Positions 27,156-64,000 of a DNA stretch of 64,000 nucleotides are shown one piece after another. Numbering within the stretch: the stretch's first letter is position 1; every line of letters begins with the position of its first letter. Both the position numbers and the translations under genes were made by a program. Under the pieces are notes generated by a model, which saw only the letters and a list, made by a program, of their open reading frames with translations, was not told the DNA's origin and searched no databases. The DNA comes from Methanosphaera sp. ISO3-F5. GTDB taxonomy: Archaea > Methanobacteriota > Methanobacteria > Methanobacteriales > Methanobacteriaceae. The stretch covers positions 1,335,426 to 1,399,425 of the forward strand of contig NZ_CP118753.2 in the NCBI RefSeq assembly GCF_034480035.2. The letters are read 5' to 3'.

Positions 27156-30100
27156 TTATAAAGTTTTAACACTTTTAGTAGTAACTTGTGACTCATAATA
27201 TGATTGTCTTTCACCAGTGATAATAGTTAATGATTTAACCTTGTTACCACCTAATTTTATACCAGATAAGTTGATTTTTCCATCTTTAACTGTTATAATA
27301 TTTTTACCATTCATTTTAAATGTTTTACCATTTACTTTAATGGATATTTGGTTGTTTCCAATCACATTCTTTCCATACTGGTCAAGTATTTTTGCCTTTA
27401 TGGAAAGTTGGTCATTCTTAACAGTTGCACTTGTAATGTTGATCTTGGTTGAACTTCTTTCCACATTGTATACATTAGTATCTCTTGCATCTGGATAATA
27501 GTTATCAGCTGCGTATACTGCTGTTACAGTGTAGTCTCTCATGTGTCCATCAATCATTCCACTTGTACCAAGTGGTACGTGGTAAGTGTACTTAGCTACT
27601 CCTTTGGTTACTTTGACTTTTATGCTTTCTCCTTTGGAATCTTTAAGTGTTTTACCGTTGATCTTGAAGATTACATAAGCGCCATCGTTTACCATGGATT
27701 TTGTGCTGCCCGTTGTCACATCTGTTACCTTAGCGGTGAATACTACGTCCTTATCCTGTTTTACTAGTTTTGGACTGGTAGTTAAGCTTACACTTGCTGT
27801 GCGTTTTCTGATGTTGGCTTCGGCTATGTTACCCTTAGCTGATTCGTACTGGTAGCTTCCACTATAGCTTGCTGTGATGTTTTTACCTGCTCTTAGGTAA
27901 AGGTCTGCATTCATTGTGAAAGTTACGAGTCCGTTTACTACTTTGAGTTTCATTGGCTTGTTGGTTGTTGTGTCGAAGCGTCCGTCTGTCTGTAGTGAAC
28001 GACCGTTTAGTTTGAATACTATGTTTCCACCACTTACTGGTTTACCATATTCATTGACAACATGTGCTGTTAACGTGATTTTTTCACCGACAGTTCCGGT
28101 TACACTGTCAACGGTTAGGATTACCCGTGATTTTACTATGGTAGTGTTTAGTGTTGTGCTTGATGTGTTGTATTTATCGTTTCCATCTACACTCACTACT
28201 ATCTGGTTGTTTCCTGAAGTAGCACCAGCTTTTATGATAGCTCGTCCATTAGCATCTGTTTTAACAATCATACGTGTTCCATTTGGTAGTGTTACTGTTA
28301 CTGTTTCGTTAGCTACTGGTTTTCCATTGCCGCTATCGGTTACTGTTACTTCAAATGTGGTGTTTGCAACTGTGTTGTTCACAACTTTTACGTCAACATC
28401 TACTTTTCTTGGTTCTACTTTTTCTGTTAGAGTGGTCTGTGAGGATTCATAGTCTGTTCCTCCATTGTATTTTACGTCTAACTTGTAGTTTCCGGTCTTG
28501 TCGATGTTGGTGTTTACTATTGCTACACCATTTCTTACAGGTGCTTTTCCCACTTGTTTACCGTTTACGGTGATTGTTACTTCTCCACTTGTTATTGGTT
28601 CACCGGTTGCTTCATCATTTACGCGTACTTCTACTGCCACGTCACCTGCAGTGTTGTTTAATTGTTTTGCACTGGTTGTGGTTGTACGTTTTGCAACTTT
28701 TACTGGAACTTTTACTACTACGTCATCATAGGTGTCGTTTCCTGGGTAGGTGACTGTTATTGTGTTGTCTCCTACTGGGAGGTCTACTGGTAGTATTATG
28801 TTTCCGTTTTCTGCGGTTGCTGTGATGTTTTTACCGTTTGGCAGTGTTACTATTACTTTACCGTCTACTGGTTTGTTGGTTGCTGGGTCTACCATTGTAA
28901 TGTTTACTTTGGTGTCTCCACAGGTGTTGTTGGTTACTGCTACTGTTACGTTGGATGGTCTTGGACTTACATGCACATCTTTCTCGGTTGTGTTACTGGT
29001 TTCGTATTCTGGGTTGCCCTCATACTTGAGAACTACTTCATAGTCACCAGATTTACCGAGGTCAGTGTTGATAAGTGCGTTTCCATCCTTGTCTAATGGT
29101 GCTCTTCCAACAACTTTACCACCAACTATAGCCACTACTTCTCCACCTGTTATTGGTTCTCCTGTGGTAGTGTCTCGTAGACTTGTTTTGAATGCTACGC
29201 TTCCTGCAGTGGTGTTTGCTACTTCTGATGTTAGTGTGGTTTCACGTTTCTGTACATTTACTGGTACTTCATAGTGTATGCTGTCATAGGTTTCGTTTCC
29301 TAGGTAGGTTACACGTAGTGTGTTGTTTCCTACTGGTAGGTCGACTGGTATGACTGCTTCACCATTGGTTACGTTTACTGGGACGTTGGTACCGTTTGGC
29401 AGTGTCACTGTTACTGTACCATTTAATCCTTCTCCGGTTACTGGGTCAACAAGTTTTATGTTTACTGAGGTGTTTCCTCTTGTATTGTTTGTTAACTCTG
29501 CGGTTACTTGTGATTCTTTTGGTGTTACAGTTATTGTATCTGCCTGTTTTGTGACTGGTGCACTGTCATTGTTACCTTCATATGTTACTACTATTGGATA
29601 GGTTCCTGTTGAGGATATGCTTGTAGGTATTGTGACTGTGCCGTCTGGTCCTACTGGTAGTCTTCCTACTTCTTCACCGTTTACTGTGATTGTTACATTT
29701 CCACTAGTTACTGGTTCGCCTGTTTCACTATCAGTTACGTTTACTTTTACTGTTGTGTTACCTGCTGTGTTATTGGTTACTTCTACGTCGACATTGGTGC
29801 TGCGTGGTTCCACGGTCACGTTTAGTGGCGTGCTTGTAGCATTGAACGTGTCACTACCAGGATAGCTTACTGTGATGTTCTGTTCACCAACACTTAGTGG
29901 CACAGTAATTGTACCTTCTTCACTTACTGGTAGTTCTGTGGTTGTGCCATCTGGTAATGTTACATTCACTGTAGTTAGTAGTAGTGTTTCATTTGTCACT
30001 GGGTCATAGAGGTCTACCTTGATTGTTACGTTGTCCTTGGTTGTGTTTAATGGTGTGAGGTTTAGTTTGGATTCACTTCCCATTATAGGTACGCCGGTTA

Positions 30101-33100
30101 ATTCTCTTGTGAAACTGGTATGGTTTTCGTCTCCTTCAAAGGTTACATTCAAGTCGTATGTTCCTTTATCGGCAATGTTAACCATTACTTCTACTGTTCC
30201 ATCAGGTCCAACTGGTGCTCTTCCAATCAGTTTATCACCAATGGTTATGTTTACATATCCACTTGTGATTGGTTCTCCTGTTACTGGGTCACGTACTTCC
30301 ACTATTACTGATGTTTTGTTTGCAACTTTAGGTGAAACCTCTGCAGTTAAAGTACTATCACGTTTTTCTATACTTAACGTGTTAGTAGTGTTTACTATGG
30401 TTTCATTGTTTACTCCATCAGCAGGGAATTTAACAACTAACGGTTCACCAGTATTGTTGGTGATTGGAATGTCCAGTACTACTGTTGCAGTTCCATCCAC
30501 TATTGTTACTGGTACTGTTGTACCGTTTGGTAGGGTTACTTCCACTGTACCGTTTACGCCAACACCTGTTTCATCGTCGGTCACATTTACCTCTAAGGTT
30601 ATGTTTCCTTGTGTGGTGTTGGTTAATGTAGCGTTCACGTTGATTTTACGTGGTTCCACGGTTACTGGTAATGTGATTACATCTTCATCATACTTATTGT
30701 TTGATGGATATTTGACTGTAAGAGTGTTTTCTCCTACTGGTAGGTCTAGTAATGCTTTACCAGTTCCTTCGATTACTTCTACTGGTACATTGGTACCGTT
30801 TGGTAGGGTTACATATACTGTACCGTTAAGTTTTTCACCAGTTACTGGGTCAACAAGTTCCACTTCTATTGTAGTGTTTCCTTTGGTCTTGTTAGGAATA
30901 TCTGCGGTTACCTGTGATTCTTTAGGTGTTGCATCAAATGCGTTGGTAGTGTATGTTTCACCAGCTGTGTTTTCGTCTCCACTGTATTTGGCTACTAGTT
31001 TGTAGTTACCTGTCTCGTTAAGAGTGGTGTGGATGATTACTGTTCCATCTTCCTTTAGGTCATCAGGAATAGTTGCTGTTCCCACTACTTCTCCGTTTAG
31101 TGTGATGTTAACTGTTCCACTACTTACAGGTTTTCCGGTTGTTGCATCGGTTACGTTCACTTTTACTGTGATGTTACCAGCAGTTGTATTGGTTACTTCT
31201 GCTGTTATGTTACTTGCACGTTTTTCTAGTGATAGTTCAGTGAATTCTTTTTCGGTTGGGTCGTAGCTTGTAGTGTTTCCAAGGTACTTGACAGTTACAT
31301 TCTTCGTGTCTATTGGTACTTCTATTGGTACTGTGACTTTTCCGTCACTGCCGATTGTACCATTTCCTACACGTTGACCGTTTTCATCGTATACTTCGAC
31401 TATTCCACCTTCAGGTAATGCATCACCAGTCACACTATCAACTAATGTTACGTCAATTGTAGTGTTACCAACTGTGTTATTGTTTGGTGTTACTGTGATG
31501 TTAGCTGTACGGTTTGCAATATTTATATTTGATAATGCTTCGTCTGTGTAGCTGCTTTCTGTGTAGTTTTCATTACCCAGGTAGGTGATGTTTAACTTGT
31601 GAGGTCCACTAGTTGTAATGTTAGTAGGAACTTCCACCACACCCGTTGTGTCATCAAAGACTATGCGAGCAACTTCCACGCCATTATCAGTGACAACAAT
31701 AGTACCACTGGTTATTGGTTCACCAGTTACAGGATCAGTTACTGTTACGATTACGCTTGTATTGTTTGCACTGGTGTTTCCAGGACGTGCTGTTACACTG
31801 CTGTTACGTTGTGTTACAGTTACGGTTTCTGGTGTTGTAGCTGGAACTTCCTTGTAGGTGTCATCAGCTGGGTATGATACGCTTACTTCTCCACCAGTTA
31901 CTGGTATGTCAAGTACTGCTGTACCTACACCATCTTTGATTTCTACTTCTACTGGAGTACCATCAACGAATACGATAGCGGTTCCGTTTATGCCTTCTCC
32001 TGTTTCTGTATCGTTCACGGTTACTTCAATTGTAACATTTCCCTGTGTATTGTTGGTTATAGTATAACCTACATCAATACTTCTTGGTTCTACTGTTACA
32101 TTGAATTCAATGCCTGTTTCATTATAGGTTTCGTCACCATCAAATGTTACACTTATGGTACTGTTACCTACTGGCAGGTCTACTGGTATTCCACCAACAC
32201 CATCAACAACCTGTACCGGGACAGGTTTGCTTCCATTTACTGATACGAGTACTGTGCCGTTAAGTTTTTCACCTGTTACTGGGTCAACAAATGTTACATT
32301 TACAGTAGTGTTACCTTTAACCGTGACTGGTACTTCTGCTGTGATGTTGGATTCTTTTGGTGTGCTGTCAAATGCATCAATATTGGTGTAAGTATCTGTG
32401 TAGTTAGTGTTTCCACCTACATTTGCTACTAGTGTGTACTTACCAGTCTTATTAATATTGGTGTATATGGTAGCTGTTCCATCCTCTTTGATGTCTGCTT
32501 CTCCGACAACTTCACCACCTAGTGTAATGTTAACTTTTCCACTAGTTACAGGTTTACCCGTAGTTGCATCAGTTACATTCACTTTTACAGTGATGTTACC
32601 AGCAGTCATATTAGTTACTTCTGCAACGACATTCATTGCACGTGTATCTACGTCAACATGTACTGGTATGCTGGTTGCGTTGTATGTTTCATCACCAGGA
32701 TATGATATATTGATATCGTTTGGTCCAACGTCGAGTGGCACGTTGATTGTACCATCAGGGTTTACTTGAACTTCTTTAGGTGTTTCTTCACCAGGTAATG
32801 TTACATTTACTTTATCTACTGGTAATTTTTCACCACTTACTGGGTCAACAAGGTCAACCTTAATAGTCACATTACCTTGTGTAGTGTTAGTTACAGTTAC
32901 ATTGAACTCTGATTCACTACCCAATATTTCAACATTTTCTAAGTCTGTTGAATCACCTGTGTAGTTAGTATTGCCTTCATATACAACTTTTAAGTTGTAC
33001 GTGCTTTTTACTGGTAAATCAGCTTTGACTATTACAGTTCCATCAGGGCCAAGTTCTGCTTTACCAACAATTTCATCTGCAAGATATACTGTTATGTTAC

Positions 33101-36100
33101 CGCTTGTAACTGGTTGTTCTGTTACTGGGTCTACTACTGTTACAGTAATCTCTGCTTTGTCGGCTACAGCATTAGTTACCTGTGCGGTTACTTTACTGTC
33201 ACGTTTGTTTATTGTTAATGTGTTGGTTGTGTTTACAGTTGTTTCATTGTGCACTCCATCAGCAGGGAATGTAACCACTAACGGTTTATCACTACTTTCA
33301 TTGATTGGAATGTCAAGAACAATTACTCCTTTACCATCAACTACTGGTACTGTTACGTTTGTACCGTTTGGTAGTGTAACATTTACAGTACCGTTTACGC
33401 CAACACCTGTTTCACTGTCGGTAACGTTAACTTCGAGTGTAATGTTACCCTGTGTGGTGTTGGTTAATGTAGCGTTCACATTAATTTTACGTGGCTCAAC
33501 AGTTACATTGAATTCATGTTCTGTAGCATTATAGGTTTTATCACCATCAAACACTACCTTTACAGTGCTATTACCAACTGGTAAGTCGAGTTTTACTTCA
33601 TCTTCCGGTACACCATCTACTAGTTTTACTGCTCGTCCTGGTTCCTGGCCGTCAACGATAACATATACTGTACCATTTAAGCCTTCACCAGTCACAGGAT
33701 CAACCAGTTTAATATTTATTGTAGTGTTGTCCTTAGTAGTGTTTGGTATGTCTGCTGTTATATTGGACTGTTTAGCTGTAGAATCGAATGATTCAATGTT
33801 AAATGTTGCTCCAGTATAATTCTCATTACCAGAGTAGTTAGCTACGAGTGCATAATTACCAACATTAGTAATGTTAGTACTGATAACTACTAATCCGTCC
33901 TCATCCAGAACAGCACTTGATAGGTCTACTGTTCCTACTACTTCGCCCTTATTGGTTATGTTAACTGTTCCAACAGTTAATCTTTCACCAGTAGTTGCAT
34001 CAGTAAGGTTTACTTTTACAGTAATGTTACCAGCTGTAGCATTAGTTACGGTTGCTACCATGTTACTTGCACGAGGTTCAACTTTGATATCAGTATAAAT
34101 TACATTTACAGGATCATAGCTTGACTCGTTTCCAAGGTATTTGACTACAAGTTCTGTAGTGTCTACAGGTACGTCTACTGGTACGGTTACTTTACCGTTT
34201 TTGTCGATTGTACCGTTACCAACTTCTATACCATCCTTATCATATACAACTACTTTTCCACCTTCAGGTAATGGATTACCAGTTTGGCTATCAGTGACTG
34301 TTACATCAATAGTAGTGTTACCAAATGTACTGTTACCAGGTGTTACATCAATTTTAGCTGTACGATTTGCAATATTAATATTGGATAATGCATCATCTGT
34401 GTAGTTAGCATCAGTGTAGTTAGCGTTACCTGTGAATGTTACGTTTAACATGTGTGGTCCACTGGTTGTAATATTGGTTGGAACTTCAACTACTCCAGTT
34501 TCATCGTTAAACTCAACTCTTGCAACTTCAACACCATTATCAGTAACAACAATAGTACCACTAGATATAGGTTCACCAGTTACAGGATCAGTTACTGTTA
34601 CGATTACACTGGTACTGTTTGCACTAGTGCTTCCAGGCACTGCTGTTACACTGCTGTTACGCTGTTCAACAGTAACACTTTCAGATGGTAATACCTTTTC
34701 TGGGTAAGTGTCATCCTCGAGGTATTTAATACCTACCTGTTGAGGATTTTCTCCATCTATTGGTATGTCAAGAACAACACTTGCTTCACCATCAACAACT
34801 GGGACGTTAACTTTTGTACCATTTGGTAAAGTTACTTCCACAGTACCATTGATGCCTTCACCGGTTTCTTCATCCTTAGCTGTTACTTTGAGTGTTACAT
34901 TACCCTGAGTACTGTTGGTAAATTCTGCTTCTACAACTGCAGTACGAGGATCAACTGTTACAGTGAAATCGTATCGAGTTTCATTGTATTTTTCATCACC
35001 ATTGAATGTTACATTCACAGTGTTACTGCCAACATTCATGTCAACAGGCAATACACCAGTACCATTTACTACTTCAACAGGCACTGCCCTTGCACCATTA
35101 ACAGATACGTAAACTGTACCGTTAAGTTTTTCACCAGTTACTGGGTCAACAAGTGTCACATTAACACTAGTGTTACCTTTAACCTTGACAGGTACTTCTG
35201 CTGTGATATTGGATTCTTTAGGTAATACATTGATTGCTTCAAGATTATATGATTCTTCACCATAAAGTGGACTGCCATCATATACTACTGTTAACTTATA
35301 CCTTCCGGTTTCGCTAACATTAGTAGTGACCAGTACAGTACCATCATCCTCGAATTCAGCATCCTCAAGGTTAATACTTGCAACAACCTCACCATTAACT
35401 GTAATGTTAACAATACCAGAACTTACAACATTATCCTTAGCAATGTCAGTAACGTTCACACGAACAGTCACATTACCAGCAGTAACATTAGTAACTGATG
35501 CAGTAACATTAACCATACGAGGAGTGATACTAATAGGCTTAGTAGTTACATTCTCATTATATGTGGTGTTACCAGTATAATTAATTACAAGCTGAGTTGT
35601 ATCTACAGGCACATCTAATTTAATGAGTGTTACTCCATTTTCATCAGTAGTGTTACTTCCAATAGGATTTTCCACACCATCTATGTATACGTTTACTGTA
35701 CCGCCAGTTACTGGTGTTACACCATCCTGGTCAAGTAAGGTTACTTTTATAACAGTATCATTAAGTGTAGAGTTTACAACTTCATAATCTACTGTAGCAT
35801 TACGTTTATCAACAGTAAATGATAATACGTTATCGGTATCATCAAATGTTGCATCATCATATACATCAGTTCCCTTGTATTCAACGGTTAACTTATTATC
35901 ACCGGAACCTGTGATGTTGGTTTTTACATCAACATATCCAGGATTATCACCTGTTACTGGAACTTCTGCTACAACATTACCATCCTTGTCTTTGATAACA
36001 ATTGTACCCTCTGTTAACGGAGTGCCAGTAGTCTTATCAGTAACGTTCACACGAACTGAGACATCACCAGCAGTACTGTTAACAAGTGAAGCATTCACAC

Positions 36101-39100
36101 TAGTTAATCGTTTTTCAAGATTAATTGTTTCTGTTGTGTTCTTTGCATCATAGGTAGTGTTACCAGGATACTCCACATAGAAACCTGTAGTTCCAGGTGT
36201 TGCATTCAATAGTATATCTACTGTACCATCATTACCAGTTACACCAGTACCTATTAGTACAGTCTTGGTATCATCAGTGTATATGTTCACAACTGCATCA
36301 GATACACCTGTTGTTCCATCTTCATCAAGTATTGTTACCTTGATTGTGGTGTTACCAATTGTATTGTTGGTTGGGTCAACAGTGATTGTTGAGTTACGTT
36401 TAGCAACCACGAAGTCTAGTACGCCTTCGGTGTCATCAAATGTTGCATCAGCATAAACTTCATTACCAGTGAATAATACTTCAAGGTTATGTTCTGCTTC
36501 AGAGTCTGTGATGTTAGTTTTTACATAAACTATTCCATCAGCACTGCCAGTGAATGTATGATTAGCAACTACTACACCATTATCAGTAATAATAATTGTA
36601 CCGTTACTAATAATCTTTGAAAGATCATTAGGGTCTGTTAATGTTACTTTAAGAGTTACATTACCAGCAGTAGTGTTAGCAACACTCACGTCAATGTCTG
36701 TGCTGCGTTGTTTAATGTCAACAGTAAATTCCAGAGTATTAGCAGAGTAGGTTTCATTACCCTCAGGGAATACCACTTTCAAAGTATTATTACCCACAGG
36801 TAAATCCTCTGTTAACGTGATACTGATTATTCCATCAGCACCGGTTGTACCAGTACCAACAACATTACCTTCACTATCAGTAATATTGAATTCTGCTCCT
36901 ATTATTCCTGCACCTGTTGTTGCATCTGATATGTTTACTTTAACTTGTACATCACCATACGTGTCATTTACAGGAGTTGCACTAATTGTAATGTTACGTG
37001 TAATTATATCATAATCCAATATCATATCATTATATGAATTTGATGCATATTTGCTTGTACCATTGTAGTAAACAACATAAAAAATGTTTTCTATGTTACT
37101 TGTTATCGTAGTAAGTGGTAGTGTTGCTTCACCATTACTGTTTAATTCTACATCATTGCATATTATGTTGTCTTCATGGTCTGTGATGTTTATCTTACCT
37201 TCACTTATTGGGTTTCCATTTTCATCAGTAACTTTTACGCGTAGTGTGATGTTACCAACTGTAGTGTTTTCTACTGTTACTGCCATATTGGTTGATATTT
37301 TACGTATAGTGAATGTTTTAGTTACATTTACAATATTATGGTTTTCATCATAATATGATATGTTTACCTTGTATTCTCCTGCTTCGTATTCGCCAACTGT
37401 TGCAGTAAATTCTTTATCGTAGAACCCATTACCCCGTGTTGTAATGTTTTCTGATGATTTAATGCTTCCATCAGGATTTATTATGGTAATGTTAAGGTTA
37501 CTTGTTGTTATTGGTGTTCCATCAACTTCTGTAAGATAACCATACACGTTAAACTTGTTATCAATTGTCACAGTACTGCTAGGATCTATTGTAACATTTA
37601 TTACTGTCACTCCAGGATCTGCAGTAATAGTTGATAATGATTCTGGTGTTAGTCCTTCACCAATAGTTGCAGCATCCAATGCTACACTACTTTGATACCT
37701 GTCATTTCCTTGATAGGTAATAGTTATAGGTACTGTGCTTGTGGTTGTAATACCAAGGTTAAGATCATTAAGATTTATTATAACTTCATCATTTGCATCA
37801 ACTTTAGTGAAGCTTATTACTCTTGGCACTCCATCCACTTCAACTGTTAACTTACCAGTACGTATAGCTTCATTATGTTGACCTAATATTTTTACACCGA
37901 TTGAAACATTACCTGCAGTATTATTTATAATACGTGCTACTGTAGTTGATTCAAGTTTAAGTACTGTGAATGTTGTAGTAGCCGATGATGGCCTGTTACC
38001 ACCACTACCATAATAATTTACTATTACAGTATATTCCCCTGCCCCAAGAATACTAGGAAGATAGTGTTGAGTACTACCGTCTTTGTTATTTGAAGTTTGA
38101 TCAGCATAAAATACTGATTCTTGGTTATTGTTATTAGTAATAGTTATGTTGTATTTACCATTTTGAGGGAAATTCTGGAGATTGAATATATCAAGGTGTA
38201 TATATACCGTTTCATTAAGATAGAACACCTTTTTTATAGTTGTATTATATTCATCTTCATAAGTATTTAATTTAACATAAGTGTCATGTTTACTAGCTTC
38301 ATCCATACTACTAATAGATTTACCATTATCTTGATACTTATCTGATTTACTAAATGTAACATATGCGTATGGTTCCCCATCCTCTCTGAAAAACTTAGGA
38401 TCCAGATAAATTAAATAAAGATTTCTACCCTCATCAATAGTAATATTCCACTTATAATCATATAAGTCATTATTAAGATCACTTAGATTATAATCTTGTC
38501 TTTCACTTTCAGTGTTATTCATATTAAGATGCAAGTTTCCATCTTTAATAAGATTACCCTCAGCATCTCTAATACCAACAGCTAAAGTGACATTACTATG
38601 ATCATCCTCAGCATAAAATAATTCAATAAATGAAGGAAGCTTTTCAACAGGAACAGTAATATTTTTAGTTGCACTGTTAATTTTTCCAACTACTTCATGA
38701 TAATTAAATATAATAGTATGATTCACCATTTTAGAAGGTGTGAACTTTATAGTCCAAAGCTTATTAACAGAATCATACTGACTAAATTGGTTATCCTCTA
38801 GATGTATATAATTAGCATCTAATACAATATGAGAATCACTTGAATCAAGTAATTCATCACCAGCAGTTACATTAACCAATACAACATATTCCTCATCGAT
38901 ACTAGCATCACCAGTAGTATAAAAGTTAATTACCGGATCCATCAAGGAAATACTGGAACCACTAATCACTTTTTCAACAGTTTTACCAGAATAATCCTCT
39001 GTACCAGCATATTCTACACTAATTGTAATAGTAGAATTACTGGTAGGAGTATAAGTTAGACTAATATTACCCTCAGATCCAGTAGTGTATGGACCACCAA

Positions 39101-41461: not shown

Positions 41462-44400
41462 TTATGTTTTTACGTTTCGGGTTGTGACCTGTGATTCAAG
41501 GTATGATTGTCTTTCACCGGTTATGATTGTCAGTAATTTTACTTTGTTTCCTTTGAGGTCGAGATTGTTTATGCTGATTTTTCCATTATTTACTTGTGTG
41601 AATGTTTTTCCATTTATTTTAAATGTTTTACCATTTACTTTTATGGATACACTGCTTTTTCCGATAACGTTTTTACCGTATTGGTCGTATATGTTTGCTT
41701 TTATTGAGAGTTTGCCGTTTTTGACTGTTGCTGTTGTTATGTTTATTGTGGTTTTGCTTCTTTCGACATTGTATGCTACTGTGTCTCTTGCATCTGGGTA
41801 GTATTTATCGTTTGCGTAGACTGCTGTTACCATGTATTCTCGTTTGTGTCCGTCTACCATTCCGCTTGTTCCAAGTGGGACGTGGTAGGTGTACTTGGCT
41901 TTACCGTTTACTACTTTGACTTTTATGTTTTCTCCTTTGTTGTTTTTTATTGTTTTGCCGTTTATTTTGAAGATTACGTATGCGTCTTCGTTTATCATGG
42001 TTTTACTGGTGCCTGTTATGTCTTTTATTGTTGCTGTGAATGTTATGTTTTTGTCTTGTTTTACTTGTTTTGGGTTTGTGTTTACTGTTACTTTTGCTGT
42101 TCGTTTCTTGATGTTTGCTTCGGCTACATTTGCTTTGCCTGATTCGTACTTGTAGCTTCCACTGTAGCTTGCTGTGATGTTTTTACCTGCTCTTAGGTAT
42201 AGATCGGCTGTCATTGTATATATTACTAGTCCGTTTACTACTTTGAGTTTCATTGCTTTGTTGGTGGTTGTGTCGAAGCGTCCGTCTGTTTGTAGTGAGC
42301 GTCCGTTTAGTTTGAATACTAGGTTTCCACCATTTACTGCTTTGCCGTATATGTCTGTTACGTGTGCTGTTAGGATTATGCGTTCACCTATTATTCCTAC
42401 TACGCTGTCGACTACTACTTTGACTTTAACCTTTTCTACTGTGGTGTTTATGGTGGTTGTTGATGTGTTGTATACATCGTTTCCTTCTATTTTTACGTTT
42501 ATTGAGTTGTTTCCTTGTTTTGTTTCTGTTTTTATGGTTGCTTTTCCGTTCTTGTCGGTTGTTACTTTTATTATGGTTCCGTTTGGTAGGGTTACTGTTA
42601 CTGTTTCGTTTGGCACTGCTTTTCCTGTTAGTGTGTCGGTTACTGTTACTTCTAGTTTGGTGTCTTCTACTGTGTTGTTTACTACTTTAACATCTACTTG
42701 TACTTGTCTTGGTTTGACTTTTTCTGTTATGCTTGTCTCTGTGCTGTCATATTCTGGGCTTCCATCGTATTTGATGTTTAGCTTGTAGTTTCCTGTTCGT
42801 GATATGTTGGTGTTTACTTTTGCGACACCATTTCTTACTGGTGCTTTTCCTACTTGTTTTCCGTCTACTGTGATTGTTACTTCTCCGTTGTTTACTGGTT
42901 GTCCTGTTTTGTCGTCTGTGACTTGTACTTCTACTGCTACGTTTCCTGCAGTGTTTGTTAATTCTTTGGCTGTTGCACTTGTTTGGCGTTTGTTGACTTT
43001 TACTGGTATTGTTACTACTACGTCATCATAGGTATCATTTCCAGGGTATGTGACTTTTATTGTACTGTCTCCTACTGGGAGGTCTACCGGCATTACTAGG
43101 TTACCATTTTCTACTTTGGCAGTTATGTTTTTGCCGTTTGGTAATGTTACTATTACTTCTCCATTTACTGGTTTGTTTGTTGCTGGGTCTGTCATTGTTA
43201 TGTTGACTTTTGTGTCTCCTAGTGTGTTGTTCGTTACTGCTAGTGTTACTTTGGATTCTCTTGGTTTTATGTTTATATTTCCTGTTGATGTGTTGCTGTT
43301 TTCATAGTCAGAAGATGCTTCGTATTCTAGTATGATGTTGTAATCTCCGGATTTGGTTATGTCTGTTGTGATTATTGCATTACCGTTTGAGTCTGGTGTT
43401 GCTGTTCCTATTACTTTGTTGTTTGCTTTTGCTACTATTCTTCCACTGGTGACTGGTTTTCCTGTTGTTTTGTCTTTTATGTTTGTGTTGAGTGTTACGC
43501 TTCCAGCAGTAGCATTAACTACTCTGCTTGTTATGCTTGTTTCTCGTTTTTCTACTTTTACTGGTATTTCGTAGTGTACGCTGTCATAGGTGTTGTTTCC
43601 TTGGTATGTGACTTTTAGTGTGTTGTCTCCTACTGGGAGATCTACTGGTATGTTAGCTTTTCCGTTTGTTACTTTTACTGGTATGTTGGTACCGTTTGGT
43701 AGTGTTACTGTTACTGTACCATTTAATCCTTCTCCGGTTACTGGGTCAACAAGATTAATACTTACTGTGGTGTTTCCTTTTGTCTTGTTTGCTAGTTCTG
43801 CTGTTATTTTTGATTGTTTTGGTGTTACTGTTATTGGATTTGTTTGTTTGGTTACGTTACCATAGTTTTCGTTACCATGATATGTTACTACTAGTGGGTA
43901 TGTTCCGGTTGAGGCTATGCTTGTTGGTATGGTTACTGTTCCGTCCGGTCCTACTGGTAGTCTTCCTACTTCTACTCCGTTGGATGTTACTGATACTTCT
44001 CCGCTTGTGACTGGTTTTCCGGTTACTGGGTCTGTTACTTTGGCTTTGACTGTGGTGTTTCCTGCTGTTGTGTTTGTTATGTTCACGTCTATTGTTGCTT
44101 CACGTGGTTCTACGTTAACTTTTATTGGTATGCTGGTTGCATTGTATGTGTCGTCTCCAGGGTATGAGACTAGTATATTGTTTTCTCCAACACCTAGTGG
44201 TACCTTGATTGTACCTTCTGGGCTTACTGGTATTTCTGTTGTTGTTCCATCTGGTAATGTTACGTTCACACTAGTTATTGGTAATTTTTCTCCTGTTACT
44301 GGGTCTATGAGGTCTAATTTTATTGTTACGTTGCCCTGTGTATTATTGGTTAAGGTTGCGTTGAATTGTGTTTCACTACCTGATATGTTCACATCTTTTA

Positions 44401-47400
44401 TTTCATTGGTAAATCCTGTGTAGTTTTCGTTTCCTGTGTATGTTACGTTGAAGTCATAGTTGCCCTTGCTTGGTACGTTTACTGGTATTGTTACTGTTCC
44501 GTCTGGTCCTACTGGTAATCTGCCTATTTCCTCGTCACCGTTTGTTACTATTACTTCTCCAGTTGTGATTGGTTCTCCTGTTACTGGATCAAATACTTTT
44601 ACTGTTATTTCTGTTTTGTTGGCTACCGGGTTTGTTACTGTTGCTTCTACTGTACTGTTACGTTGTGTTATACTTATTGGTTCTGTGGTGATGCTTGTAG
44701 GTTCGTTTACTCCATCATCTGGGTAGGTTACGGTTACAGGTTTGCCTGTGTCACTTATTGGTATGTCAAGCACTACGCTTGCTTTACCATCTACTACCTG
44801 TACTGGTACGTTTGTACCGTTTGGTAGTGTAACGTTTACCGTACCGTTTACTCCAACACCAGTTTCATCATCGGTCACAGTTACTTCTAGTGTTATGTTG
44901 CCCTGTGTATTGTTGGTGATTTCTGTTTCTACATTGATTTGGCGTGGCTCGACTGTTACCTGTATCATGGTTGTGTTTTCATCATACTTGTTGTCTGATG
45001 GATACTTGACTGTTATGGTATTGTCTCCTACTGGTAGGTCAAGCAGTAATTCACCATTACCATCAGTTACTGTTACTGGTAGGCTGGTACCGTTTGGTAG
45101 TGTGACGTATACTGTACCATTTAAGCCTTCACCTGTTACTGGGTCTTCTAGTTTTATTTCTATTGTCGTGTTTCCTTTGGTCTTGTTAGGTATTTCTGCT
45201 GTTACCTGTGATTCTTTTGGTATGCTGGTAAATGATTCTGTTGTGAATGTTTCAGATGTGTAGTTTTCGTCTCCACTGTACTTGGCTACTAGTTTGTAGT
45301 TGCCTGTCTCGTTAAGGTTGGTGTGGATTATTACTGTTCCATCATCTTGTAGGTCATCAGGGATATTTGCTGTTCCCACTACTTCTCCGTTTAGTGTTAT
45401 GTTAACTGTTCCACTACTTACAGGTTTTCCAGTGATTGCATCGGTTACGTTCACTTTGACTGTTATGTTTCCATTTGTCTTGTTGGTTACTATTGCTTGT
45501 ACGTTACTTGTACGTGGTTCTAGTTTTATGTTATCATATTCTACTGTTGCAGGGTCGTAGCTTGTAGTGTTTCCAAGGTATTTGACTGTTACCTTATCTG
45601 TGTCTACAGGTACGTCTATTTTTACTGTGACTTTTCCGTCATCTCCTATTGTGCCGTTTCCTACAAGTTTACCTTCTTCATCGTATACTTCTACTATTCC
45701 ACCAGCAGGTAATGCTTGACCTGTAGCGTTATCAACTACTGTTACGTCGATGGTGGTGTTACCAAATGTGTTATTGTTTGGTGTTACGGTTATGTTAGCC
45801 TTACGATTACTAATATCCAGGTTGGATAATGTGTCATCAGTGTATTCACTCTTCGTGTAGTTTTCATTACCTTCAAATATTACTGTTAGGTTATGTTTAC
45901 CACTAGTTGTAATATTGGTAGGAACTTCCACCACACCTGTAGTATCTTCAAAGTCTATGCGTGCTACTTCCACGCCATTATCTGTGACTACTATTGTACC
46001 ACTGGTTATTGGTTCTCCGGTTACTGGATCAGTTAGTGTTACGATTACACTGGTACTGTTTGCACTTGTGTTTCCAGGACGTGCTGTTACACTACTGTTA
46101 CGCTGTGTAACTTCAACGTTTTCTGGTGTTGTTGCTGGAATTTTCATGTATGTGTCATCAGCTGGGTATGATACGCTTACTATTCCACCAGTTACTGGTA
46201 TGTCAAGCACTACGGTACCTACACCATCAATGATTTCTACTTCCACCGGAGTACCATCAACGAATACGATTGCTGTTCCGTTTATGCCTTCTCCAGTTTC
46301 TGTATCATTCACGGTCACTTCAATTGTAACATTACCCTGAGTATGATTAGTAATAGTATAATCCATCTTAATACTTCTTGGTTCGACTGTTACATTGAAT
46401 TCCATGCCTGTTTCATTATAGGTTTCGTCACCATCAAATGTTACACTTATGGTACTGTTACCTACCGGCAGGTCAACTGGTATTCCACCAACACCATCAA
46501 CAACAGTTACAGGAAGAGGTTTGCTTCCATTTACTGAAACGTATACTGTACCGTTAAGTTTTTCACCAGTTACAGGATCAACAAATGTTACATTAACAGT
46601 AGTGTTACCTTTAACATTGACCGGTACTTCTGCTGTGATATTGGACTCTTTTGGTGTGCTGTCAAATGCATCAATATTAGTGTAAGTGTCAGTATAGTTA
46701 GTGTTTCCACCTACATTTGCTACTAGTGTGTACTTACCTGTCCTGGTAATGTTAGTGTATACGGTAGCTGTTCCATCCTCCTGGATGTCTGCTTCTCCAA
46801 CAACTTCACCGCCAAGTGTAATGTTAACTTTTCCACTAGTCACAGGTTTACCCGTTACAGCATCTGTTACATTGACTCTTACTGTGATGTTACCAGCAGT
46901 CATATTGGTTACATTTGCAACGACATTCATTGCACGAGTATCCACATCAACATGTACTGTTTTACTGGTTCCGTTGTATGTGTTGTTACCAGGATATGAT
47001 ATTGTGATATCGTTTGGTCCAACATCGAGTGGCACGTTGATTGTACCATCAGGGTTTACCCTGACTTCCACGGTTTCTGTGCCAACAGTTACATTAACTG
47101 CATCTACAGGTAATTTTTCACCTGTTACTGGGTCAACGAGGTCTACCTTAATTGTCACGTTACCCTGTGTAGCATTAGTTACACTTACATTGAACTCTGA
47201 TTCACTACCCAGTATTTCTATGCCTTTGATTTCCTGTGTAAATTCTGTGTAGTTTTCGTTACCGGTAAAGGTTACGTTGAAATTGTATGTGCCTTTGTCT
47301 GTAATGTTGAGTGGCACTACTACTGTTCCGTCCTGTCCTACTGGTAATCTGCCCACTTCTTCTTCACCAATTGTTACTACAACGTCACCGTTTGTGATTG

Positions 47401-50400
47401 GTTCTCCAGTTACAGGGTCAACTACTTTTACTGTTACTTCAGTCTTGTTGGCTACTGGGTTTGTAACTGTTGCTTCTACTGTACTGTTACGTTGTGTTAT
47501 ACTTATTGGTTCTGTGGTGATGCTTGTAGCTTTGTTTACTCCATCATCTGGGTAGGTTACGGTTACAGGTTTGCCTGTGTCACTTATTGGTATGTCAAGC
47601 ACTACGCTTGCTTTACCATCTACTACCGGAACTGGTACGTTTGTACCGTTAGGGAGTGTTACGTTTACTGTACCGTTTACTCCAGTACCTGTTGCTGCAT
47701 CTGTCACGTTCACTTCCAGGGTGATGTTACCCTGTGTATTGTTAGTGATTTCTGCTTTCACATTTATTTCTCTTGGCAATACATTTACTGTGAACTCGTC
47801 TTCTGTAGCGTTATATGTTTTATCACCATCAAAGACTACTTTTACAGTATTTTGTCCAACTGGTAAGTCTAGCAGTACTTCTTCTTCTGGTACACCATCT
47901 ACTATTTTAACTTCTCGTCCTGGTTGCTGACCGTCCACTATCACATGTACTGTACCGTTTAAGCCTTCACCAGTCACTGGGTCAACAAATGACACGTCAA
48001 GTGTTGTGTTACCCTTAGTAGTGTTATGTAATTCTGCTGTTAATGTGGATTCTTTAGGTGTTGAATCGAATGATTCTATGTTAAAGGTTTCTCCAGTATA
48101 ATTATCATTACCTGAGTAGTTAACTACGAGTGCATAGTTACCAACATCTGTAATGTTAGTAGTGATAACTACTAATCCGTCCTCATCCACAGCATTTGAG
48201 AGGTCTACTGTTCCTACTACTTCGCCCTTGCTGGTGATGTTAACTGTTCCAACTTTTAATCTTTCACCAGTGGTTGCATCTGTAAGGTTTACTTTTACAG
48301 TTACGTTACCTGCTGTGGTGTTAGATACTATGGCTTCAAGATGGCTTGTACGAGGTTCTACACTTAAATCAGTAAATTCTACTGTTGCAGGGTCTGTGCT
48401 TGTATCGTTTCCAAGGTATTTGACTATGACTTTCTCGGTGTCTACAGGTACGTCAATTTTTACTGTGACTTTACCCTCACTATCTATTGTACCGTTTCCT
48501 ACAAGTTTACCTTCTTCATCGTATACTTCAACTATTCCTCCCTCTGGTAATGCTTGACCAGTTGCGTTATCAGTTACTGTTACGTCTATGGTTGTGTTAC
48601 CAAAGGTGTTATTGTTTGGTGTTACGGTTATGTTAGCTTTACGGTTAATAATATTGAGGTTGGATAATGTGTCATCAGTGTATTCACTACTTGTGTAGTT
48701 TTCGTTGCCTTCAAATATTACTGTGAGGTTGTGTTTACCACTAGTTGTAATGTTTGTTGGAACTTCTACCACGCCGGTTGGGTCATTATAGTCTATGCGT
48801 GCTACTTCTTCACCGTCATCGGTGACTACTAGGGTACCACTGGTTACTGGTTTTCCTGTTACTGGATCAGCTACTCTTACAGTTATAGTGGTATGGTTTG
48901 CTATGTTATTGGTTACTGTTGCTTCTACTGTACTGTTACGTTGTGTGATAGTGATAGGGTCTGTGACTATTTGTTTTTCCTCGTTCACATCATCGGCTGG
49001 GTATGTTACCGTTACTGGTTTACCTGTGTCACTTATTGGTATGTCAAGCACAACACTTGCTTTACCATCCACTACTGGTACTGTTACATTTGTACCGTTA
49101 GGGAGTGTAACATTTACTGTACCGTTTACTCCAGTACCTGTTGTTGCATCGGTCACGTTAATTTCCAGGGTGATGTTGCCCTGTGTATTGTTAGTGATTT
49201 CTGCTTTCACATTTATTTCTCTTGGCAGTACATCTACGTGAATATTTTTTGTTGTTTCGTTGTAGGTGTTGCTTCCAGGATATGATATTGTGATGTCATG
49301 TGCTCCTACTGGTAAGTCTAATGCTTCTTCAAGTTTTCCATCTTTTACATTGTATTCCTGTTTTTTGCCATCATCAATTGTTACTATTACTGTGCCGTTT
49401 AGTCCCGTTCCTGTTACAGGATCTGTTAGGTTCACATGTAATGTTGTATTACCAGTGGTTGCATTAGGAATACTTACATTAAGATTGGATTCCTTGTATG
49501 TTGCATCGAATTTGTCTAATTGGAAGGAGTTTTCCTCATATTCTGGGCTTCCATCATATTCAACGCTTAACCTGTATGTTAAAGCATCAGTTAGGTTAGT
49601 TCCCAGTATTAATAATCCGTTCTCATCATATACGAGTGTGTCCTCGTCAAGGTTTACTGTTGCCACTACCCTACCATTATTGGTTATGTTTACAGTACCA
49701 TGCTCTAGTCTTTCACCAGTTGCTGCATCGGTAAGATTAACTTTTACCGTGATGTTACCAGCAGTCTTGTTAGATACTGTTGCATTGATAGTAGCTTCTC
49801 TTGGCATTGTTGTGATGGTTACTGTTTTTTCTGTCCTGTTGAAAGTATCGTTACCATCATAGGATATTGTAACTGTCTGTGGTGTACTACTATAGTCTAG
49901 TGGTAATGTTACTTTACCATCCACTATTTTCAGTTCCACTGTTTCTTCTCCTATGGTTACGTTTACCTTGTCTATGCCTAATGATTCACCAGTCACTGGG
50001 TCAACTATGTCCACACTTACTGTTACATTGTTAAGTGTACTGTTAGTTACTTCTGCCATTATAGTGGCATTTCTGCCTACTACATTAACATTTTCTATTG
50101 TGTAACTAGTATTTGCATATTCATCGCTGCCCTCATAGTTCACGACTAGTGCTATGTCATCAGAGATTGTGCTTATGTTTGTGGTTATTGTCACTGTTCC
50201 ATCCAGTCCGACAGGTTGTCTTCCAACAGTCACACCATTATATGTGACGTTCACGTATCCACTGGTTACTGGTTCACCAGTTACAGGATCATATACTTCC
50301 ACTTTTACCGTGGTATTACCAGCAGTATTATTGGTTAGCGTAGCTGTTATTGTAGAGTTACGTTCAATAATTTCTACTGCTTTACTTGTTGTGCTTGAAT

Positions 50401-53400
50401 TGTATACATTGTTTCCTGTGAAGTTTACGTAAATGTTCTCTGTACCTACTGGTACTGTTAAATTAATAAGTACGTTACCGTTTTCATCAGTTACACCCGT
50501 ACCGACTAGGACTGTCTGTTCAATATCACTGTACACGTTTACTGTTGCATTTGCAACCGTACTTGTACCATCCATATCAGTAATGGTTACTTTTACAGTG
50601 GTATTGCCTACCGTAGCATTTTCCACGTTAACATCTATTGTTGCGTTACGTTTGTCTACGCTAAGGCCGGATAGACTAGAGCTTGTGAATGTTTCATCAG
50701 CGTAGTTAGTGTTTCCTGTGAATTTTACTTCCAGGTTATGTTCACCATCAGAGTCTGTGATATTTGTTTTAACCAGTACACTGCCAGTGGCTACATCCTC
50801 ATATGAGTAGTCTGCTACAACATTTCCATTATCTGTTATGATAATTCTACCACTTGTTACTCCGGAATTGTTCACCTTATCTGTAACGTTTACCTGTACT
50901 GTCACATTACCTGCTGTTGTGTTAACAAGTTCTGCTACTAGGCTTGTTTCACGTTGTTTTACATTTACTGTGAATTCCTGTTCTTTTGGTGAGTATGTCG
51001 TGTTTCCTGCTGGGAATACTACTTTGTATGTTTGGTCTTCACCTACTGGAACATCTAGTTTAACCTGTACTGTTCCATCATTACCAGTAGTGCCTCTGGC
51101 TATAACGTCACCTGTACTGTTTGTGATGTTAAATTCTAGTCCAGGTATTGCTTCTCCTGTGGTTTCATCTGTAACGTTTACTAGTACTGTTGTGTTTCCA
51201 TAGATACTGTTCTGAACATTGGCATTAATTGTTATGTCTCTGGTTGTTAGTTGTAAGTCTTTTAGTGCGTCAGTATCTTGTGCATCTGTGTACTTACTTG
51301 TACCATTATAGTTTACTATGAGACTTACCGGTTCGTTGCTGGTTATTGAATCAACTGTTACCAGTACTTCTCCATCACTTCCTTCTGGTACGTTTACTGT
51401 TTTTATTCTGTTGCCATTAGTGTCTGTTATGTTAACTGTACCCTCAGTTATTGGTCTTCCCTGATTATCCTTTAGAACTACCTTGAATGTAAGGTTACCC
51501 ACTGTGTTGTTGACTGGTATGACTTCAATATTTGAGGTTACCTTGCTGATGTTAAAAGTTTCAGTCACGGTCTTTGTTTCATGATCATCATCACTGAATG
51601 ATACTTCTACCGTGTATTCACCGCTAGGATAGTTTTCAGAGACTATGTCTTCTTCTAGGCTGTAGTATCCACGGGCATTTGTAGTTTTGTTTTCTGTGAA
51701 TACTATGTTACCTTCTTTGTCACGTATTGTGATGTTAACGTTTCCACCAGTGATTGGTGTGCCGTCTACATCGGTTAATGTACCATGAACATTTAGTTGT
51801 GAGCCTATGGTCACATTTTCTGGTTCAACTGTTACACTTATAACGGATGTACCCTTATCTGGTGTTATTGTTGAGAGTGGTTGTGGGTTACCAGATTCTA
51901 TGCTTTCCTTGTCATATGCTACACTACTAGCGTGTATATCGTCTCCCTGATAGGTTACTGTTATGTTAACCGTATCGGTGCTTCTGATTCCTAGTCCAAT
52001 TTCGTTAAGGTTTATTATTATTTCATCTTCCTCGTTTGAAAGTTTGAAGTTAACTACTCTTGGAACACCATCAACTTCCACGGTAAGTTTACCCTTCCTG
52101 ATTGGTTCATCTTCTATACCAGTTACTTTAACTCCTAAGGTAATGTTACCTGCGGTTTTGTTCTTAACTTCAACAATACTGGTTGATTCCAGTTTTTTAA
52201 GAGTGAACTTAATGGATGCAAATGAAGGATTGTATGCACCACTACCCGGATATTCTACCAGTATAGTGTATTCCCCGCTTGTATGGTTATGGTATGTGAA
52301 ATTAAATCCTTCTGTATGTGTTGCATGACTAGTGTACTTGAATGCCTGGCTTGGGTATTTGTCATTGTATATTGTTATGTTTACATCACCGTTTTGTTTG
52401 AAACCAAACATGTTAATTAGGTCAAGGTATATGTAAACTTCATCGTCAATGTAGAATGTATCTTTCTTCGTGGTTAGTTTTTTGTCCTCATAGGTGTCCA
52501 GGTCAATTGTTATATCATATTTGACTGCCATTTCACCTTTACGTCCAGTACCTCCTTTGTACTTGTCATTTTCATTATATGTTACATAGGCATATGGTAG
52601 GCCGTCTTCACGGTAGAACCTTGCTCCAACGTCGATATAATATGTTCCGTTTTCGTCCACTGTTATAGGCCATTTATAGTTTGGATCGTCTAGGTTTTGG
52701 GTGTCATATGTTTGTCTTTCATCTTCACTGTTATTCATGTTAAGACGGAATGTTCCCTCATTAACAGTATTATTATTTTCATCAGTGAATCGGACTATCA
52801 GGATAACACTTTCTGGGTCATCCTCAGCATAATCCACGTGTACGGTTACCGGTATCTTGTTCACAGTCACAGTGAAATCTACTGTTTCGGCAGGATTGTA
52901 TACACCGGTTAGTCCCGGGTAACTTAGCCTGAAGTTGTATGGTTTTACTTCGTCAGGGACAAGTGTGATTGTTAATAGTTTATTTTCCGTATCATAGTTG
53001 AGCATTGATGCATCAACACTGTTAAGACCTAGTCTGACAGTTATGTTAGATGGATCAATTAATTCATCATTACCTGTGAGGTTAACCCTGATTTTATATT
53101 CTTCACCTAATGCTGCATTACCAGTTAGGTTTACTCCTATGACAGTGTCAACTAGTTTAATACTAGTACCAGGAATTGTTTTATTGAATTCTTTTGGATT
53201 TATATCATCTGAACCAGGGTATACTACTCTGATTGTAATGTCACTATTATTCTTTGGAGTTAATGGTAACTGTAATTCACCGGATGCATTAGTTGTGAAT
53301 GGGCCTGTAAGTTCTTCTCCGTTAACGTATATTTTTACTGGTTGGCCTGGTATTCCCTCACCATCCTCGTTAACTAGACTAACATTAACAGTTAATGGTT

Positions 53401-62350: not shown

Positions 62351-64000
62351 TTAACTTGTTAGGATGTCTGTTGTTGTTAATCTTGCTCCATAGTACGGTT
62401 GTCTAGGACCAGTAACAAGAGTTAATGATTTGACTTTCGTACCTTTTGCAAGTTTAATATTTTTCAAATCAACGTTTCCATTTCTTACTGAAACGTAATA
62501 TACTTTACCGTTTTGTTTATATGTTTTTCCATTGATCTTCAGACATACTTTATTGGTTCCAACAAGCAATTTGTTCTCGTAATCTGTAAGATTTGCTTTA
62601 ACACTTAAAACATTACCTTTTACAGTTACACGTTTAAAGTTAACATTCACTATGCTTCTTTCCACATTATAATACGTTTTGTTCCTAGTGTCAGGGTAGA
62701 ATCCAGAGTTAATATATACTGCTTCTACAGTGTAGTTTCTGATTTTTCCATCATTATCTACTGCTCCTGTTCCACTAGGCACGTGGTAGACATAGTTTAC
62801 AACTGTACCCTCTACTGGTACAAGAATATTGTTTCCAGATTTATCCTTAAGGGTTACTCCATTAATTTTAAGTAACACACTGGCATTTGTGTATATGCTG
62901 GTAGTGTTACGTGCATTACTGGTCACATCCCTTAGTTTTACTGTTATAACAATATCATTGTTTTGTTTAACTTTGCCCGGAAGTACTTTTACAGATAATT
63001 GTGCTGAACGTTTACGTATATTTGCTACTGCAACATTACCTTTTGCACTTTCATACTTGTAGCTTCCACTGTAGGATGCAGTTATGTTCTTACCGGCACG
63101 TAGGTAAAGATCAGCTTTCATTGTATACGTTACAAGTCCATTCACTACTTTGAATTTATATGGACTGGCCGTGTTTGTATCGAAACGTCCATCTAGTCTT
63201 AGTGTTCTACCGTTTAGTTTGAATACTATGTTTCCTCCATTCACTGGGTTTCCTTTTTCATCTACAATATGTGCTGTGAGTGTTATGTCTTCTCCTATAG
63301 TTCCTTTCACGGAGTCTACTGTGAGTTTAACTTTTACTTTAGCAATATTATATGACGTGGTTACCGTTTTTGTTTTGTGTGAGGAGTCTCCATTGTACCT
63401 TGCAGTTACGCTTCCTTTTCCACTTGGAAGGTCTATTGGTACTGTTGCTGTACCAGTTTTTCCTACATTAACGTTTACTTGTGTTCCGTTTGGTAGTGTT
63501 ACTGTTACGGTTCCACTCACTGGTTTTCCGGTTGTGGAATCGTTTAGTGTAACTTTTATCTTGGTAGAGCCTACACTTGAATTATCTATTGTTACAGCCA
63601 TGTTTGTGTCACGTCCATTGACGTTAACATTTCCTATTGTTTTATTTGCTGCTTTGTAGTTGGTTGATGGTTCATAGTTTGCAACTAGTGTGTATTTTCC
63701 GGTATCCTCTATACTGGTTTGTATTGTTGCTTTTCCATCTTTATCTACTTTTGCTCTTCCAACAGTTTTTCCGTCAACTGTAATGTTAGCATATCCCTCT
63801 GTGACAGGTTTTCCTGTTACAGGATCACGTACTTCTACTGTTACTGTCGTGTTACCGGCAGTGTTGTTTGTGACCCTTGCTGTTATGCTGGTGTCTCTTG
63901 GTGTGACATTCACAGGTACCCGTATAGTGGTGCCTTTGTGTTCATCATCACCAGGGTATGTTACTGTTACCGTAGTGTTTCCAACTGGTACATTTACTGG
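62351..64000 (-). CDS. Adhesin-like surface protein, C-terminal part (runs off the window)
   Basis: The frame is open from the stop codon to the last base of the window, giving 549 visible residues; the N-terminus lies beyond 64000. A GTG at 63913 is inside the frame and is not a likely start, because the coding pattern (PVGNTTVTVTYPGDD) continues upstream of it. Visible are one partial and two complete A modules (TNNTAGNTTVTVEVRDPVTG; a second with IDNSSVGSTKIKVTL). The conserved ~330-residue C-terminal domain follows (RAGKNITASYSGS, YHVPSGTGAV, LVTGPRQPYYGARLTT). This C-terminal subtype matches the adjacent 1,797-aa protein more closely than the three larger ones. By analogy it is secreted, extracellular and wall-associated; the head and stalk length are unknown. 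Confidence 0.9.
   Translation of the reverse strand, partial: PVNVPVGNTTVTVTYPGDDEHKGTTIRVPVNVTPRDTSITARVTNNTAGNTTVTVEVRDPVTGKPVTEGYANITVDGKTVGRAKVDKDGKATIQTSIEDTGKYTLVANYEPSTNYKAANKTIGNVNVNGRDTNMAVTIDNSSVGSTKIKVTLNDSTTGKPVSGTVTVTLPNGTQVNVNVGKTGTATVPIDLPSGKGSVTARYNGDSSHKTKTVTTSYNIAKVKVKLTVDSVKGTIGEDITLTAHIVDEKGNPVNGGNIVFKLNGRTLRLDGRFDTNTASPYKFKVVNGLVTYTMKADLYLRAGKNITASYSGSYKYESAKGNVAVANIRKRSAQLSVKVLPGKVKQNNDIVITVKLRDVTSNARNTTSIYTNASVLLKINGVTLKDKSGNNILVPVEGTVVNYVYHVPSGTGAVDNDGKIRNYTVEAVYINSGFYPDTRNKTYYNVERSIVNVNFKRVTVKGNVLSVKANLTDYENKLLVGTNKVCLKINGKTYKQNGKVYYVSVRNGNVDLKNIKLAKGTKVKSLTLVTGPRQPYYGARLTTTDILTS

Follow-up and report, generated by a model that had tools for sequence, protein, structure and literature searches.

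Super-repeats are best known from muscle proteins, with titin and nebulin as the established cases. The immunoglobulin (Ig)/fibronectin type III (FnIII) super-repeat of the titin A-band has been modelled as the insertion of a middle domain followed by tandem duplication, leading from -AC-ABC to -AC-ABC-ABC (PMC10665226), while nebulin carries seven-module super-repeats in which the autocorrelation of module similarity peaks at several modules and the expansion lies in the middle of the array (PMC1553488). Long domain repeats are chiefly eukaryotic, and the expansion of domain repeats in blocks is general (PMC1553488). Giant surface proteins with tandem archaeal Big domains, the adhesin-like proteins (ALPs), have been described for Methanosphaera and Methanobrevibacter, and one ALP of M. 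stadtmanae is reported to have 27 domains that fall into two major clades (PMC11532034); a term search of that paper gave no mention of super-repeats, block duplication or gene conversion. Acinetobacter BAP and fibrillar adhesins consist of arrays of Ig-like modules of 80-110 aa and of several types (PMC4647330, PMC8286594) but are bacterial, unlike the archaeal protein described here. No report of a super-repeat in an archaeal or bacterial Ig-like adhesin was found in the open-access papers searched, which does not prove its absence. The present analysis concerns a window of 64,000 nucleotides from the chromosome of the sheep-rumen methanogen Methanosphaera sp. ISO3-F5 (contig NZ_CP118753.2, positions 1,335,426 to 1,399,425) and, within it, open reading frame (ORF) A, which encodes a giant adhesin-like protein and belongs to a run of giant minus-strand ORFs. 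What is new here is the occurrence of a super-repeat in such an archaeal adhesin-like protein.

ORF A is one open frame of 4507 codons, in which an N-terminal non-repeat region is followed by an array of Ig-like modules and by a conserved C-terminal region of about 325 aa that is common to many ORFs of the genus. Pfam assigns PF16640 (Big_3_5) to 18 stretches of the protein with an E-value of 1.4e-148, and together with a structure model this places the tandem Big (Ig-like) domains typical of Methanobacteriales ALPs in ORF A. The AlphaFold2 model of modules M17-M21 shows five beta-sandwich modules in a row (predicted local distance difference test score 90; predicted template modelling score 0.55, so that the angles between domains are not fixed by the model) and resembles known structures with Ig-like domains in tandem, among them a bacterial adhesin extender (6xi3). 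ALPs have a right-handed beta-helix near the N-terminus, and a Pfam scan of ORF A returned no match to a beta-helix domain at E 0.001. Ratios of nonsynonymous to synonymous substitution (dN/dS) of 0.11-0.53 indicate that the modules are under purifying constraint. The N-terminus appears hydrophobic when the translation is inspected by eye and is a candidate export signal. It reads ...FITLTGCS... (40615-40679), a lipobox-like motif that has no counterpart in the neighbouring ORF B.

Module borders were set by iterated hidden Markov model (HMM) segmentation, which yielded 32 contiguous modules of 91-103 aa, the number that a sequence-only reading of the window had given for the 4,507-aa protein. 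That reading had also proposed a ten-module higher-order repeat with a unit of about 2.84-2.86 kb at 29810-35525, and the pattern proved real: DNA words, lag identities and trees agree that M7-M26, which occupy 29814-35528 and are exactly twenty modules, read abcde-abcd'e' twice. In a check on the DNA that is free of any module borders, the 12-mers shared within this interval cluster at offsets of 2853, 2841 and 2862 bp, with 89 and 56 in the offset bins against at most 5 in 20 codon shuffles, and lesser peaks lie at 1.41-1.43 kb (five modules) and 4.30 kb (15 modules). Mean amino acid identity within M7-M26 is 0.589 at lag 10 (z 8.6) and 0.437 at lag 5 (z 4.8), values reached by none of 5000 permutations of module order, while adjacent modules (lag 1) share 0.266, which is under the permuted mean of 0.314. 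The nearest relative stands at a multiple-of-five distance for all twenty modules (12 at 10, 8 at 5 or 15) and is the adjacent module for none of them; the outcome that the sequence-only reading had named as its refutation did not arise. In the trees, types a, b, c, d, d', e and e' form groups, with good support for a, c, d, d' and e' and less for b and e. A similarity peak at a multi-module lag combined with dissimilar neighbours is the hallmark of a super-repeat, and both features are found in ORF A.

The likeness to centromeres that had been drawn for this repeat is an analogy and did not hold up. Alpha-satellite higher-order repeats are non-coding DNA in many copies that are at least 95% identical, whereas ORF A has two units, which at lag 10 share 59% of amino acids and 66% of nucleotides and thus differ at about 34% of bases. 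Titin and nebulin are the closer precedents. As in the titin A-band, the modules are Ig-like and domain types occupy fixed places in a long unit, and the logic of growth is similar, here a pair of module classes (I-II) plus an additional module c. Titin differs in that it is an intracellular muscle protein encoded with introns and has 11 C-zone copies; ORF A is an uninterrupted archaeal frame for a surface protein with two copies, and the likeness is one of fold. With nebulin, ORF A shares the peak at several modules instead of one and the expansion in the middle of the array, although nebulin modules are unrelated and not Ig-like.

The tandem paralogue ORF B allows the age of the super-repeat to be judged. 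Identity between modules of A and B amounts to 0.643 in register and 0.42-0.43 when the arrays are shifted by ten, and DNA offsets of 2829/2838 bp reveal the same two ten-module units in B. For each position n, informative sites were counted over the quartet A_n, A_n+10, B_n and B_n+10. M7, M8, M9, M12, M13 and M16 group by position across the two genes, with ratios of within-gene to positional sites of 2:58 for M12/M22, 4:48 for M13/M23, 3:40 for M9/M19 and 2:43 for M7/M17; for e' (M16/M26), positional sites exceed within-gene sites by 19:2, and its lag-10 identity in the two genes is 0.57 and 0.60. Such position-wise grouping makes the ten-module duplication older than the A/B split. To judge from the sequences, the super-repeat predates the duplication of the gene. 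Modules 5 and 6 of B (50084-50371 and 49811-50083) are unlike modules 5 and 6 of A and resemble d'e', B06 grouping with B16; it looks as if a half-block had been kept or gained before the first unit of B.

The quartets also place M10, M14, M15 and, less clearly, M11 within each gene (within-gene to positional sites 40:1 for M14/M24 and 22:4 for M10/M20). These modules delimit two homogenised tracts (Table 1). Both edges of the second lie no more than about 20 bp away from a module border, and two-state segmentation gave a log-likelihood of -237 compared with -372 for the best of 1000 site shuffles. Type d and most of e sit inside a homogenised tract, e' (M16/M26) almost wholly outside. The tracts look like gene conversion between the two units of each gene after the A/B split. 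They imply that lag-10 identity is part descent and part later copying, and that it overstates the cleanness of the ten-module duplication. Local copying at a later time has obscured how ORF A was first built up by duplication.

According to the sequence-only reading, the stalk grew by duplication of blocks of ten Ig modules, preceded by an older five-module duplication. Growth in multi-module blocks is borne out, but a plain five-module duplication doubled to ten is not. The trees unite n with n+10 as sisters for six of the ten pairs (8/18, 10/20, 11/21, 14/24, 15/25 and 16/26) and not for the rest: M17 joins M22, though weakly, M13 has M18 as its nearest relative, and neither 9 with 19 nor 12 with 22 forms a pair. 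Identity between n and n+10 spreads from 0.42 to 0.82, with 71% for M8/M18. The older relationship between n and n+5 is recovered only for a, b and c; it is weak for d/d' and missing for e/e'. For types a, b and c, modules five apart fall into common clades, and outside the homogenised patches their similarity is about the same at lags 5 and 10. Clades joining only n with n+10 for these three types are absent from the best tree, yet approximately unbiased (AU) tests do not reject them (p 0.05-0.22). The identity of e and e', at 0.25-0.30, is that of unrelated types, and a single clade of e and e' is rejected (p 0.026). It is d/d' and e/e' that give the array its ten-module period. With e/e' at background and their common clade rejected, plain doubling from five to ten to twenty is too simple, and a d'e' dimer that was changed or replaced between repeated abc triplets fits better.

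All modules split into two classes, I and II, with support of 99/98 for A and B and of 100/98 when ORFs C and D are included. Head and tail modules alternate between the classes, and the block abcde reads I-II-II-I-II, i.e., a pair of dimers and an additional class II module (c). The two clades of the M. stadtmanae ALP are perhaps the same alternation. Counted per gene, there is one five-module block in C, there are about two in D and four in A and B. The 13-module C-terminal array of C (2452-6090) comprises a head pair, the single block and six tail modules that match the tails of A and B; the tail modules of A have one-to-one counterparts in B and, for most modules, in C. The 16-module array of D holds about two blocks in near-identical copies, with identities of 99% for D04/D09 (synonymous divergence, dS, 0.06), 92% for D06/D11 and 89% for D03/D08. 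From the D04/D09 values, the duplication in D is recent and shows growth by a five-module step. It is independent of that in A/B, and neither A nor B descends from D. In its N-terminal part (6090-22000), ORF C contains weak Ig-like matches about 200 aa apart, a spacing that suggests a long array of diverged two-module units.

Table 1 Features of the adhesin cluster in the window (positions 1 to 64,000); window coordinates of the tracts are derived from module starts.
Feature	Position	Strand	Basis
ORF A, giant adhesin-like protein, 4507 aa	27156..40679	minus	ORF list, translation, Pfam
Array M1-M32, 32 contiguous Ig-like modules, aa 1125-4180	28140..37307	minus	HMM segmentation
Head modules M1-M6, class I / class II alternating; m3-m4 and m5-m6 related dimers	35529..37307	minus	trees
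Super-repeat unit 1, M7-M16, a b c d e a b c d' e', aa 1718-2676, 2877 bp	32652..35528	minus	lag profile and tree
Super-repeat unit 2, M17-M26, order as unit 1, aa 2677-3622, 2838 bp	29814..32651	minus	lag profile and tree
Tail modules M27-M32, class I / class II alternating	28140..29813	minus	identity table and trees
Homogenised tract 1, unit-1 nt 867-1382, M10 to late M11, about 515 bp	34147..34662	minus	quartet counts, two-state segmentation
Homogenised tract 2, unit-1 nt 2021-2622, M14-M15, about 600 bp	32907..33508	minus	quartet counts, two-state segmentation
ORF B, 4651 aa, tandem paralogue of A, exactly 32 modules in register	41462..55417	minus	module identities, DNA offsets
Super-repeat of B, modules B07-B26	44114..49810	minus	segmentation, trees
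ORF C, 8308 aa	1462..26388	minus	segmentation, trees
Single five-module block of C, C03-C07	4126..5514	minus	tree placement with types a, b, c and D blocks
ORF D, C-terminal end	62351..63913	minus	ORF runs beyond the window; whole ORF at chromosome 1397779-1420626, 7616 aa

We consider it about 75% probable that hierarchical growth of the array by five-module blocks, followed by duplication of the gene into A and B and then by patchy homogenisation, shaped the extended stalk of this giant adhesin-like surface protein. Class I and class II modules would alternate as the basic dimer, and addition of an extra class II module (c) would have produced the five-module block abcde. Blocks would then have multiplied to the numbers present in C, in D and in A and B. 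In the ancestor of A and B, the d-e dimer of every second block would have differed (d'e'), so that two block pairs read as a ten-module unit present twice. Duplication of the whole gene would have given rise to A and B, each of which has retained its 32 modules in register, and out-of-register recombination may afterwards have made stretches of one unit like those of the other inside the same gene. This order of events is what we infer from the patterns, as is a mechanism of unequal recombination and gene conversion. Several points weigh against such a history. C, D and A/B are parallel outcomes instead of one lineage, the single block in C could be a loss, and some of the assignments of C and D modules to block types are weak. 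In addition, arrays of two other genomes (G014 and G032) have high identity between adjacent modules, so the misfolding argument given below is not general.

In principle, a single five-module duplication and a subsequent ten-module one in gene A, free of any exchange afterwards, could account for the higher average identity at lag 10 than at lag 5 (0.589 vs 0.437), for the six sister pairs and for the recurrence of the abc part every five modules. This simple course of events is nevertheless improbable: the n/n+10 identities differ almost twofold within what would be one event, e/e' are at background and their common clade is rejected, the unit is common to A and B, and the quartet topologies form a patchwork with a sharp switch at module borders. 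Slightly more credible, though still unlikely, is an origin of the four five-module copies close in time, with the ten-module period resulting only from gene conversion or module swapping that kept d/e alike in blocks 1 and 3 and d'/e' alike in blocks 2 and 4. The equal closeness of lags 5 and 10 for a, b and c outside the tracts agrees with it, as does the position of d and most of e within a homogenised tract, but e', nearly all of which falls beyond the tract borders, is paired with its lag-10 partner in both genes and shows positional A/B orthology. The evidence from e' dates the d'e' alternation before the A/B split.

The dominance of within-gene similarity in M10, M14 and M15 could also be taken to mean that the ten-module repeat formed independently in A and B after gene duplication. 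Positional quartets reject independent duplication, M7, M8, M9, M12, M13 and M16 grouping by position across the genes, and with both arrays comprising 32 modules in register such an origin is very improbable. An assembly artefact, i.e., a collapsed or falsely expanded repeat, is the least probable of all. The repeats are long, and subreads averaged 2.4 kb with an N50 of 3.2 kb (PMC11008217); however, the two units are easily told apart at their level of divergence, the ORFs are uninterrupted, long-read coverage was 327x and the top 10% of subreads are listed at 21 kb (PMC11008217). Only the 99% identical pair in D carries a real risk of such an artefact.

Growth in blocks is a habit of the family, and other arrays of this genome and genus have periods of 2, 4, 5 and 7 modules. 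A giant ORF of about 5537 aa elsewhere in the ISO3-F5 chromosome (about 2376000-2390000) has a seven-module super-repeat, with an identity of 0.68 at lag 7 vs 0.32 at lag 1 and 97% for the best pair. Another ORF, of 9521 aa (chromosome 554000-582500), contains period-2 arrays in which some modules are 100% identical two apart, along with a 14-module echo. A whole-protein search of genome contigs found no relative. A five-module query detected no positional orthologue of the super-repeat in 60 related genomes, the best identity outside ISO3-F5 being 41%, so that the ten-module duplication is not polarised. Best identities of single modules to other species are flat (0.39-0.54), and by this measure tail modules are not more conserved between species than repeat modules. 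Super-repeat DNA was not found in a second genome of the same species (G061), a draft that is 93% complete, and draft contigs tend to break in repeats. Its orthologue of D is cut before the array. The single-copy flank beside D is 98.5% identical between the two genomes and D itself only 71% in DNA and 60% in protein (chromosome 1408300-1425600), so these adhesin loci change very fast or are exchanged by allele replacement. At the edge of the adhesin cluster (36-1351), two adjoining minus-strand ORFs, one with a DDE_3 endonuclease domain and one for a helix-turn-helix protein, look like a two-frame insertion sequence.

Identity between adjacent modules is lower than in random order in A (P 0.003), B (P 0.008) and D (P 0.03). 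It averages 26-35% in these arrays and thus lies near the 24% of the natural titin neighbours I27-I28 (PMC4660218). When several modules are copied together, neighbours stay dissimilar, which plausibly prevents adjacent Ig domains from misfolding with one another and may explain the rarity of single-module duplication here; the work on BAP likewise argues that diverse neighbours lower misfolding. The broader statement that lag-1 identity is always lowest was dropped in view of the arrays of G014 and G032, and given these counter-examples we offer misfolding avoidance as a hypothesis. A more far-reaching proposal is possible but doubtful: Methanosphaera adhesins might grow only in multi-module steps since neighbouring Ig modules must differ, with the I/II alternation setting the allowed step (2, 4, 5, 7, 10) and gene conversion homogenising at that distance while neighbours stay unlike. 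If this were true, the paralogues, with block numbers of one in C, about two in D and four in A and B, would offer a natural series in which to test misfolding avoidance, an idea developed on titin.

For the organism, the array would serve as a rigid, length-adjustable spacer or extensible stalk that holds binding parts off the pseudomurein wall, and its length may be tuned by recombination between like modules of different blocks. The case also carries a warning: unless a paralogue can be compared, the order of duplication cannot be read from module similarity. In a single archaeal gene cluster, successive sizes stand next to each other, together with a super-repeat older than the gene duplication and traces of homogenisation, and the cluster provides a simple, intron-free system in which to ask how long surface stalks gain length and why copying proceeds by blocks and not module by module.

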